DNA of 46,158 nucleotides, from contig JAMOTN010000018.1 in NCBI GenBank assembly GCA_027062325.1, positions 1 through 46,158 of the forward strand, in the 5' to 3' direction. Shown here piece after piece: positions 11,780 to 46,158 of the stretch. A model generated the notes under the pieces. It was not told the origin of the DNA, searched no databases, and saw only the letters and a program-made list of their open reading frames with translations. Every line of letters starts with the position of its first letter. The stretch's first letter is position 1. The translations under genes and the position numbers were made by a program. The DNA is from a bacterium (GTDB lineage: Bacteria; JAMOTN01).

Positions 11780-14422
11780 TCACCCTTTGATAACCGATAC
11801 TCCTTCCAATCCCTCAACAACATCTCTTAACGGTACCTCCGGATACAATATCTTCAACTTGTTATAAACTCTCTCAAACGCTTCAACTACTTTTGGATCA
11901 AACTGCTTACCCGCATTCTTTTTTATCTCCTCTAAAGCATAGGAATCAGGCAAAGCTTTTCTATAAGAGCGAGAAGAAGTCATCGCATCAAAAGTATCAG
12001 CAACCGCTAAAATTCTTGCTCCAAGCGGAATTTCCTCTCCCTTTAAGCCTTCTGGGTACCCCTTACCATCCCAACGTTCATGATGATAGTAAGTGTAGGG
12101 TACGACGCTTTCCAAAAAACGCACTTGATTTATTATATTGGCTCCCAAAACCGGATGCTTCTTTATTTCCTCATACTCTTCATCTGTAAGTTTTCCCTTC
12201 TTGAGTAGGATACTTTCTCTTACACCAATCTTTCCTATATCGTGAAGGAGTCCTGCTAGTTTTATTCTCTCTATCTCATCTTCAGGTAGCCCCATTTCAC
12301 GCGCTATCAAAACAGCATATTCCATAACACGTGATGAGTGCCCGTGAGTGTAGGCATCTTTTGCATCTATTGCCGCAGCAAGTGCAGAAACAGTAGATAG
12401 ATAAGCTTGTTCAAGATCTTTATAAAGAACAGCGTTTTCAATGGAAACAGCCGCTTGAGAAGCAAAACTTTCAAGTAAACTTATCTCCTCATCACCAAAA
12501 TGATGCACTCTATCGGTAAACACTTGCAAAACTCCTATGGTCTTTCCTCTAACACTTAAAGGCACTGCAATCATAGATACAAGTCCAAACTGTTTGGCAA
12601 CTGCCCTTTCCCTGAATCGCTCGTCCTCAAACACATTCTTTATAACCTCAGTTTTCCCCGTTGCGAACACACTTCCTGCTATCCCTTCACCACTTCTGAA
12701 TTTAAAGCGTTTGAAGTAATCAGGAACACCATAAACTGCTTTCACCTTTATCTCCTGCCTCTTCTCATCCTCCGCAAGCCAGACAAGAGATGAATGAGCC
12801 TCAAGTGCTTGAACACTCAACACAGCAATAAACTCTAAAACTTTTTCAAGATCAAGAGTACTTCCAACAGTTTTACTCACATCATACAAAAATGCAAGTT
12901 CTCTAATCTTTTCTTCAAGCCCTCGGTAAACCTTTGCACTTTCCATGGCAATTCCAAGTTGCAGAGCAAAAGAGCTAACAATACTCACATCAAAAGAAGA
13001 AAACGCTCCTTCTTTGAAACTTGCAACTAATACCAATCCTTTTATCTCCCCATTAGCAAACACTGGAACTGCTACATAAGAAGATATATCACCTTCATAA
13101 ATTCCACGCTTTTTCAAAACACTCATCTCAACCAAAATCTCTTCCGGTACAACCTCACGCAGAGCAATCATCCCGTATATATCGGCTACAAGTTCTTTTA
13201 AAAACTCAATCTGAGATGGGGTAGGGATATTTTGAGATACTATGTGAAGCTGAGACAATCCCGTATTTGCCAAAAATATACCACTCATATCAGAGTCCAT
13301 TATGCTCAAAAGCTTTGTCAAAATCTTCTTAACTATACTATCCAAACTTCTTCCCGCAACGCTTATGTACTTAACAATCTCATTCAAACTGGTTCTTTCT
13401 TTTAATAATCTCTCCTTTTCATCTATTTGAGATATGTGATTTATTTTTTGGTTTAAAATATCCCTTACCAATGAAAGCGTCATAACATCTTCTTCTTCAA
13501 ACAATGAATGCTCATTAAATATGACAAGCAAACCCTTATCAGAAATTGGCAACACCATACAGCTCATTAATCCATCTTCCGCATAATTTGAAAGATCAAG
13601 CTTTATCCAGTCATATTCTACATCCTTCAAGTCAAGCGAATTATCAACAATTACCACTGCCTTCTGCTCAAACATCACTATCTGTTCAACCGCTCTGAAA
13701 AATTTATCTTCAACCTCAACTTTTCCACGTTTGTAAACTTCTTCTGCGTTGGGAAGTGAGAAAGCAACACCATCGAATTTAAACTCCCTAATCAATACAT
13801 CCAAGACTTTCCCCACAAAATCCGGTGCCTCATCGTTTATAAGGCTTCTGAAAGCCGGTAAATTGTGAACTAATTTGTAATATTTGGATGACATTCTCTT
13901 AAACTCAAGACCACTTTTAATACGTCCAAGAGTGTTTCCAACCATGAGAGCTATTATCGGGATCAAATCATTCACAACCCGGGCAAGCTTTTCTTCAAAA
14001 GCTACTGCCAGCGCCCCTACATCCTCAACTCCTTCTCGCAAAATCATATATTTTATATCAAGTCCTTTCCTATCCCCCTCACTAAGCGTAAAGTTTTCCA
14101 CCTTTATTCCTACAAATTCTCTAGCTCCACCAAATGTTTTGACAAGATTTATCTTTATAATCTCAATCTCCGCTTCATCAAACTTAACCAAACTGCTAAT
14201 GACAACCTTTCTGTCCTCTGGAATAAATAAAGCCATAGCCTTGACAGGTAACCTCTCAATCGCATACTTACTTATCAATCTAGCAGCTTTCGAGATAGAA
14301 GTAGTATCAAGTTCAGCTAACGCCTCTCCAAAAGAAGCAACTTGGTTCATAACCTTCTTAGTACTAACAGCCGGCTTAATAGAAACTATTTCATCTTTAA
14401 GCCTTATACTATCAAATCGCAT
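11780..14422 (-). CDS. multi-GAF HD-GYP protein, probable c-di-GMP phosphodiesterase
   Basis: This 880-residue protein ends in an HD-GYP domain: 'HGHSSRVMEYA', 'HDIGK' at 727 and 'HHERWDGKGYP' at 780-790, all expected metal and substrate residues. Such domains hydrolyse cyclic di-GMP. Ahead of it lie at least two GAF-type sensor regions (about 345-500 and 515-665), the latter with 'GEGIAGSVFATGKTEVI' and 'SMIAVPLSVRGKTIGVLQVF'. The first 340 residues are a less conserved, also GAF-like, region. No membrane segment is seen, so it should sense a cytoplasmic signal. It follows a GGDEF gene with about a 30-base gap, pairing a synthase with a hydrolase. ATG 14422 is preceded by AGGGGGAG. Confidence 0.88.
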   Translation of the reverse strand: MRFDSIRLKDEIVSIKPAVSTKKVMNQVASFGEALAELDTTSISKAARLISKYAIERLPVKAMALFIPEDRKVVISSLVKFDEAEIEIIKINLVKTFGGAREFVGIKVENFTLSEGDRKGLDIKYMILREGVEDVGALAVAFEEKLARVVNDLIPIIALMVGNTLGRIKSGLEFKRMSSKYYKLVHNLPAFRSLINDEAPDFVGKVLDVLIREFKFDGVAFSLPNAEEVYKRGKVEVEDKFFRAVEQIVMFEQKAVVIVDNSLDLKDVEYDWIKLDLSNYAEDGLMSCMVLPISDKGLLVIFNEHSLFEEEDVMTLSLVRDILNQKINHISQIDEKERLLKERTSLNEIVKYISVAGRSLDSIVKKILTKLLSIMDSDMSGIFLANTGLSQLHIVSQNIPTPSQIEFLKELVADIYGMIALREVVPEEILVEMSVLKKRGIYEGDISSYVAVPVFANGEIKGLVLVASFKEGAFSSFDVSIVSSFALQLGIAMESAKVYRGLEEKIRELAFLYDVSKTVGSTLDLEKVLEFIAVLSVQALEAHSSLVWLAEDEKRQEIKVKAVYGVPDYFKRFKFRSGEGIAGSVFATGKTEVIKNVFEDERFRERAVAKQFGLVSMIAVPLSVRGKTIGVLQVFTDRVHHFGDEEISLLESFASQAAVSIENAVLYKDLEQAYLSTVSALAAAIDAKDAYTHGHSSRVMEYAVLIAREMGLPEDEIERIKLAGLLHDIGKIGVRESILLKKGKLTDEEYEEIKKHPVLGANIINQVRFLESVVPYTYYHHERWDGKGYPEGLKGEEIPLGARILAVADTFDAMTSSRSYRKALPDSYALEEIKKNAGKQFDPKVVEAFERVYNKLKILYPEVPLRDVVEGLEGVSVIKG

Positions 14423-42365: not shown

Positions 42366-42457
42366 ATTAATCTACTCCCCTGTTATTTCTAAACACACAA
42401 CCTCACTTAGCCAACTCACCTTTTTCAAAATCGGACAAACTTAGACAAAATAAAAAG

Positions 42458-42531
42458 TGGCGACCCTGGGAGTCGAACCCAGAACCCTGCGGGTATGAAC
42501 CGCATGCTCTCACCAGTTGAGCTAGGTCGCC
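42458..42531 (-). tRNA. tRNA-Met(CAT), elongator
   Basis: A complete cloverleaf with acceptor GGCGACC paired to GGTCGCC, a 'TAGCTCA' D arm, anticodon loop TTCATAC, and T loop TTCGACT. The CCA end is not encoded. The body resembles elongator Met. A CAT anticodon can also belong to lysidine-modified tRNA-Ile, but the stem TGCGG/CCGCA fits Met better. Confidence 0.9.
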
Positions 42532-42563
42532 ACTTACTTTCCTCTATGCAATTCGGACCACTT

Positions 42564-42612
42564 AAAAAAGGAAGCGCCCTACCGGCCGACCATTGCCCTC
42601 AAGCGCCTCCTT
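42564..42612 (-). terminator. intrinsic terminator between tRNA-fMet and tRNA-Met
   Basis: In minus-strand RNA AAGGAGGCGCTT (42612-42601) pairs with GGGCGCTTCCTT (42579-42568), a 12-bp stem with some G-T pairs, followed by a run of T. It sits about 17 bases after tRNA-fMet, so the tRNA-Leu/tRNA-fMet transcript should stop here. Confidence 0.75.
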
Positions 42613-42628
42613 ATTGCCTTCTCAAAAG

Positions 42629-42702
<74 letters not shown>

Positions 42703-42851
42703 ATTCAATAATATCAGCAAACCAGCTGCTAGTCAAGTAGCAAAATCTACTTATGAAAATCCTCAGTGAAACTTATGAAACTTAAATTTAAACTAAAACT
42801 CTTTTAAAAAACCAGAAGGAGTACTTTAAATTTTCAACCTAAAATAAAAAG

Positions 42852-42937
42852 TGCCGGGGGCGGGACTTGAACCCGCACGGGGCGCCAACCCCAGAGGATT
42901 TTAAGTCCCCTGCGTCTGCCAATTCCGCCACCCCGGC
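42852..42937 (-). tRNA. tRNA-Leu(TAA)
   Basis: An 86-base class II tRNA with acceptor GCCGGGG/CCCCGGC, D arm 'TGGCGGAATTGGCAGACGC', anticodon loop CTTAAAA (anticodon TAA), a long variable arm and T loop TTCAAGT. CCA is not encoded. It reads UUA and UUG codons. Confidence 0.95.
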
Positions 42938-45765: not shown

Positions 45766-45794
45766 TTGAAAAATACGCAAGGTAGTTTTAAAAT
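45766..45794 (+). promoter_or_regulatory. sigma70-type promoter of rpsT
   Basis: TTGAAA (45766-45771), a 17-base spacer and TAAAAT (45789-45794) give a good vegetative promoter 33 bases before the rpsT start. The ribosome binding site AAGGAGGG follows. The region is divergent from the ArsB/NhaD gene. Confidence 0.7.
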
Positions 45795-45826
45795 TATCTA
45801 TGCAGTAATAAAAGGAGGGATAGAGT

Positions 45827-46108
45827 ATGCCCAACACAAAGTCTGCAGCAAGAGCACACAGGAGAAGCTTGAAGAGGAGAATGCGCAACAAATCCATTAA
45901 AACCTTTATGAAAAATCTTGAGAAGAAGTTGCGCAGTGCAATTGAGGCCAAAAACGAAGAAGAAGCACGCAATCTCTTAAATCTCTACTACAAACACGCT
46001 GAAAAAACTGCCACCAAAGGTGTTTGGCACAAAAACAAGGCTGCACGTAAAAAGTCACGCCTTACTTTGCTCTTTAATAAGATGTTCCAAGCCGGCGTAG
46101 CTCAGTAG
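45827..46108 (+). CDS. rpsT: 30S ribosomal protein bS20
   Basis: bS20 binds 16S rRNA at the bottom of the small subunit. The N-terminal 'MPNTKSAARAHRRSLKRRMRNKSIKT' and the C-terminal 'GVWHKNKAARKKSRLT' are typical, in parts. The protein has 93 residues, a little longer than usual at the C-terminus ('FQAGVAQ'). The last five codons and the stop lie within the first 18 bases of the following tRNA-Thr gene. ATG 45827 lies after AAAAGGAGGG. It has its own promoter and runs opposite to most of the window. Confidence 0.96.
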   Translation: MPNTKSAARAHRRSLKRRMRNKSIKTFMKNLEKKLRSAIEAKNEEEARNLLNLYYKHAEKTATKGVWHKNKAARKKSRLTLLFNKMFQAGVAQ

Positions 46109-46158
46109 GCTAGAGCGGGTGATTCGTAATCACCAGGTCGAGGGTTCGATCCCCTCCG
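46091..46158 (+). tRNA. tRNA-Thr(CGT), cut by the window edge
   Basis: The sequence from 46091 has acceptor GCCGGCG, D arm 'TAGCTCAGTAGGCTAGAGC', anticodon arm GGTGA-TTCGTAA-TCACC (anticodon CGT) and T arm GAGGG-TTCGATC-CCCTC. The last bases of the acceptor stem are outside the window. Its first 18 bases are also the last codons of rpsT, so the two share DNA and probably a transcript. Confidence 0.92.

Follow-up and report, generated by a model that had tools for sequence, protein, structure and literature searches.

An 18-base overlap between rpsT and an incomplete tRNA-Thr(CGT) gene at the end of a bacterial draft contig

Results

An rpsT gene and a tRNA-Thr(CGT) gene, both on the plus strand, share 18 bases at the end of the stretch of DNA analyzed here (the window, 46,158 bases, which is a complete contig of a draft genome). 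This overlap is confirmed in the sequence as given. The explanation that we favor, and hold to be fairly probable, is that the two genes make up one co-directional transcription unit from which the spacer and the stop codon of rpsT have been lost, an arrangement that can be tolerated by the cell and that needs no regulatory purpose. The overlap is known from one draft contig, which provides a single copy of the evidence and in which the tRNA is incomplete. The relevant features are as follows.

45766..45794, plus strand: promoter-like site before rpsT (TTGAAA, 17 bases, TAAAAT), 10 of 12 consensus bases
45813..45819, plus strand: Shine-Dalgarno-like AGGAGGG, 7 bases 5′ of the rpsT ATG, read from the sequence
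45827..46108, plus strand: rpsT, ribosomal protein bS20, 93 amino acids, stop codon included in the coordinates; open reading frame call and profile matches
46088..46090, plus strand: CAA (Gln 88), the final codon ahead of the tRNA start, convertible to TAA by a single substitution and the expected end of the protein by comparison with locus L006
46091..46108, plus strand: 18-base overlap, in which rpsT codons 89-93 (AGVAQ) and TAG are tRNA bases 1-18
46091..46158, plus strand: tRNA-Thr(CGT), incomplete, 54.3 bits against Rfam RF00005 (gathering score 29); the contig ends after 68 bases

The last protein gene of the window starts with ATG, encodes a C terminus of ...FNKMFQAGVAQ and stops at a TAG at 46106-46108. 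Its product was identified as bS20 by two curated models, the cut-offs of which were both exceeded (TIGR00029, 81.6 bits against 33; PF01649, 82.8 bits against 29.5), with matches reaching residues 83 and 84. The promoter-like site upstream of rpsT is weak, as two such sites were observed in the region against 0.9 expected.

The anticodon loop of the tRNA that begins at 46091 reads TTCGTAA, giving the anticodon CGT of a tRNA-Thr for ACG, and the cloverleaf fit obtained with Infernal lies well above the Rfam gathering score. The last base of the contig, and of the window, is 46158; it falls within the 3′ acceptor strand, of which only the first two bases are present. ARAGORN does not list this tRNA, presumably because of its incompleteness. 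When the truncated tRNA was folded locally, either alone or together with upstream sequence, no cloverleaf D-arm was obtained, as would be expected because the 3′ acceptor strand is absent; the z scores of -0.76 and -1.19 were uninformative.

The preliminary description of this DNA had stated that rpsT and tRNA-Thr share 18 bases, and this was borne out at 46091-46108 with both gene identities supported by profile or Rfam matches. The shared bases are GCC GGC GTA GCT CAG TAG. They had been described as belonging to the 5′ acceptor and D-stem, both of which are included, but the shared part also covers bases 8-9 and the start of the D-loop. The rpsT frame contains no stop codon upstream of the tRNA start, and its first in-frame stop is the TAG in the D-loop. 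Thus, the tRNA starts, on the same strand, within the 3′ part of a genuine protein gene, the stop codon of which falls at tRNA bases 16-18 and the C-terminal tail of which (AGVAQ) is translated from tRNA bases. It had also been stated that cleavage by RNase P at 46091 would precede the rpsT stop codon. This holds, as the position 46090/46091 falls between codons 88 and 89 and no stop would be left in the message.

The Junction between rpsT and tRNA-Thr(CGT)

The best C-terminal match to the bS20 described here was found at locus L006, where the protein ends in ...LFNQKFQ followed by a stop codon; the corresponding residues in the window are ...LFNKMFQ, after which the tRNA begins. Because the homology with L006 runs to that Gln, the rpsT frame is supported up to the codon before the tRNA. 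Given that the L006 stop follows directly after the last Gln, the tRNA starts exactly where a stop codon might be expected. A single base, 46088, decides whether there is an overlap: with C the codon is CAA, whereas with T it would be TAA and the overlap would be gone.

A sequence or assembly error would account for the overlap if rpsT in fact ended before the tRNA, for example at a TAA at 46088, or if the tRNA part came from other DNA in the metagenome. We consider such an error unlikely. Base 46088 is located only 70 bases from the contig end in a draft of 81 contigs (83.87% complete), the evidence exists in a single copy, and L006 stops at that very point. Against this, both rpsT and tRNA-Thr(CGT) read cleanly, and the last 68 bases of the contig have no second copy in the draft genome that could cause a false join within it. 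On the latter ground, we rejected the possibility that a tRNA repeated inside the draft genome had given rise to a false join there. The contig break at 46158 falls inside tRNA-Thr(CGT), and no repeat within the bin explains it.

Distribution of the Overlap and of the D-loop Stop

A comparison was made with 118 other rpsT loci, all in distant genomes and each with at least 100 bases beyond the rpsT stop codon. These comprised 52 loci (29 + 23) from a search of relatives, which covered 58 other genomes and found rpsT in 52 of them, and 66 loci from a contig scan. The genome search yielded only genomes related at the level of the domain, and none of the 66 contig-scan loci exceeded 51% identity to the bS20 described here. 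No tRNA was found within 100 nucleotides downstream of rpsT at any of these 118 distant loci, the nearest downstream tRNA being 1146 bases away. Tails of at least 9 residues past the bS20 profile match were observed at 24 of the loci, and a long tail was therefore rejected as a sign of selection. A pattern survey of 386 genomes, which combined a bS20 motif with the tRNA pattern TAGCTCAG at tRNA bases 8-15 within a limited distance, returned 48 places in 47 genomes. When all 48 places were checked against the bS20 profile (30 + 18), the sole rpsT among them was that of the window itself. The motif used recovers 80 of the 118 known rpsT loci (an earlier, stricter motif recovered 55), and the tRNA pattern is narrow; the survey is partial, such that many cases would escape it.

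At one of the 118 loci, L025 (G034:C34) of an unrelated genome, the same isoacceptor occurs in reversed order: a tRNA-Thr(CGT) near 12272-12343 lies ∼30 bases upstream of an rpsT match at 12375-12641 on the same strand, in a bS20 frame extended to ∼200 residues. This occurrence may be due to chance.

In the draft genome, 44 tRNA genes were found, tRNA-Thr(CGT) included. When each is read in frame from its first base, a stop codon is reached by base 18 in 4 of the 44 and no stop is reached in 26, counts that are approximate, as a few of the ARAGORN starts appear to be one base off. An open reading frame that enters a tRNA in frame 1 therefore has no default early stop. Among the 150 tRNA-Thr(CGT)-like sequences listed (at least 150 matches exist), only the tRNA of the window has a stop at bases 16-18; a stop ending at base 21 is present in 53 of those listed, and 82 lack a stop within the part shown. 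As judged from these listed matches, the D-loop is unusual in comparison with such tRNAs of other lineages. By contrast, tRNA-Trp of the same genome carries TAG at the same place in its D-loop with no open reading frame ending there, so that selection for rpsT is not needed for a D-loop stop to arise. The unusual D-loop stop would thus be weak evidence for adaptation, not proof of it.

Four of the other tRNAs among the 44 are situated 18-58 bases past same-strand open reading frames of 185-399 codons. Given that short gaps between gene and tRNA are usual in this genome, the loss of one gap would be a small step. Two other open reading frames with a minimum length of 45 codons terminate within tRNAs, one of 52 codons at base 10 of tRNA-Arg(ACG) and one of 73 codons at base 35 of tRNA-Phe, and these were taken as chance frames. 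Frames that cross whole tRNAs in the draft genome were likewise set aside as chance.

Three tRNA genes, two for Met and one for Leu(TAA), are located at 42457-42937 on the minus strand, downstream of an open reading frame that ends 53 bases ahead of tRNA-Leu and that we take to resemble an M18 aminopeptidase. Elsewhere in the draft genome, the tmRNA gene (G000:C23:19806-20252) begins 16 bases after a same-strand tRNA-Pro(CGG).

RNase P, tmRNA and Promoters inside rpsT

A gene for RNase P RNA was identified in the draft genome (266.8 bits), as was a tmRNA gene (184 bits). Given their presence, cleavage at the 5′ end of the tRNA and the rescue of ribosomes from a nonstop message are both possible.

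These genes would equally serve a selected switch, in which folding of the tRNA and cutting by RNase P compete with translation of rpsT and set the yield of tRNA against that of bS20; at low bS20 translation, for example, the bare message would be cut and tRNA produced. Such a switch is decidedly unlikely. The same idea has been proposed for selB and tRNA-Sec (PMC8124441). In keeping with a switch, the cut would fall exactly at a codon boundary and remove the stop codon, and the D-loop stop is unique among the 150 listed tRNA-Thr(CGT)-like matches. On the other hand, an overlap is present at none of the 118 other rpsT loci, and the D-loop of tRNA-Trp carries the same triplet in the absence of an overlap. 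In addition, bS20 and tRNA-Thr(CGT) are not known to be functionally connected, which counts against a switch. The fuller claim, according to which maturation of the tRNA destroys the bS20 stop codon such that the two outputs compete on every transcript, and the D-loop was altered to supply the stop, would appear to be just as doubtful. A regulatory link of some kind is possible, an idea that draws on the geometry and the unusual D-loop.

In the preliminary description, separate promoters were named as the exception under which a transcript would not have to give one product or the other. Within rpsT, on the same strand, a sigma-70-type scan revealed no promoter-like site with at least 9 of 12 consensus bases, which is in keeping with co-transcription. 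The best site matches 7 of 12 bases and includes a -10-like TAAGAT at 46078, which would predict a start near 46090 and so leaves room for initiation close to the tRNA. Were the tRNA expressed from a promoter of its own inside rpsT, with rpsT messages ending by another route, the overlap would matter little for processing. We regard this as very unlikely: the predicted start is well placed, but even with its best -35 partner the TAAGAT site does not exceed 7 of 12, and the standard scan lists no same-strand site inside rpsT at all.

That tRNA-Thr(CGT) is a broken copy without function is extremely improbable, as its 3′ end does lie outside the contig but the tRNA family is matched by its D, anticodon and T arms as well as by the first two 3′ acceptor bases, and no other Thr(CGT) gene was found in the draft genome. 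Additional tRNA-Thr genes, for the isoacceptors GGT and TGT, are present in the draft genome, from which it can be deduced that tRNA-Thr(CGT) is probably not the sole reader of ACG.

Discussion

The overlap described here is probably an accident of compaction that is tolerated by the cell, and it is of a kind that has already been described. In such a compacted unit, transcription would start upstream of rpsT, and ribosomes moving close behind the polymerase would complete the 93-codon frame at the D-loop TAG, yielding bS20 extended by a tail of five residues. The tRNA would fold after translation and be freed by RNase P cleavage between 46090 and 46091. The cut rpsT message would then end in CAA without a stop codon, and later ribosomes would stall on it and be rescued by tmRNA. 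Both products could thus be obtained from one transcript, at some cost. The nonstop message would be tolerated because translation mostly precedes the cut and because tmRNA can rescue the ribosomes that follow. Two points count against the compaction explanation: the lone stop at bases 16-18 among the 150 matches listed could hint at adaptation, and the reading is dependent on a single base close to the end of the contig and on an incomplete tRNA.

The earlier suggestion that a given transcript could yield the tRNA or an intact mRNA, but not both, now appears too strict, since ribosomes might complete several rounds of translation on a single transcript ahead of cleavage. The accompanying suggestion that ribosomal protein and tRNA output may be linked was not strengthened. 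It draws on geometry, and it sits poorly with the lack of any overlap at 118 distant loci, with an ordinary tail length (24 of 118) and with the presence of tRNA-Thr genes for GGT and TGT.

If the overlap holds, it would offer a natural experiment on the loss of a stop codon to RNase P from the message of a conserved ribosomal protein, and could show the order in time of translation, tRNA maturation and tmRNA rescue. It would also mean that overlaps between protein genes and tRNA genes in bacteria extend past the selenocysteine system. If competition between the two products were true, the locus would be a case outside selB/tRNA-Sec and would tie together two components of the translation apparatus that otherwise have no link. 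Gene finders that bar such overlaps would misplace either rpsT or the tRNA. In the literature searched, from which most subscription journals were missing, no description of an overlap between rpsT and a tRNA gene was found.

Related arrangements are known from several systems. In Escherichia coli, secG and leuU are transcribed as an mRNA-tRNA transcript that is split by RNase P, with a spacer between the stop codon and the tRNA. The locus described here resembles secG-leuU in that a tRNA lies 3′ of a protein gene, and a single transcript processed by RNase P would be expected in this case also. By contrast, secG-leuU has a spacer, and the cut there leaves a complete message, unlike that predicted for rpsT/tRNA-Thr.

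In animal mitochondria, a message that overlaps the following tRNA is recognized as being at odds with the tRNA punctuation model (PMC4624183), and Armadillidium is cited as such a case of message/tRNA overlap in PMC8124441. The likeness to rpsT is that the message abuts or overlaps the next tRNA and that excision sets the message end (PMC4624183). In mitochondria, polyadenylation can complete a partial stop codon, whereas the rpsT message would end in CAA, with no partial stop before the cut.

The closest parallel is provided by selB and selC. According to Mukai 2021 (PMC8124441), tRNA-Sec genes are nested in or partly overlap selB in Alphaproteobacteria, Gammaproteobacteria and Nitrospirae; in Dyella/Luteibacter the selB stop codon is inside tRNA-Sec, such that the protein tail is translated tRNA sequence, and processing of tRNA-Sec was proposed to yield a nonstop selB mRNA. 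The rpsT locus is similar in that a same-strand tRNA lies over the 3′ end of a protein gene, the stop codon is inside the tRNA and the same argument of RNase P cleavage and a nonstop message applies. The two differ in that selB and tRNA-Sec are functionally linked, SelB being the carrier of Sec-tRNA-Sec, and their overlap recurs in many species (PMC8124441), whereas rpsT and tRNA-Thr(CGT) pair a ribosomal protein with an elongator tRNA, over 18 bases, in one draft genome.
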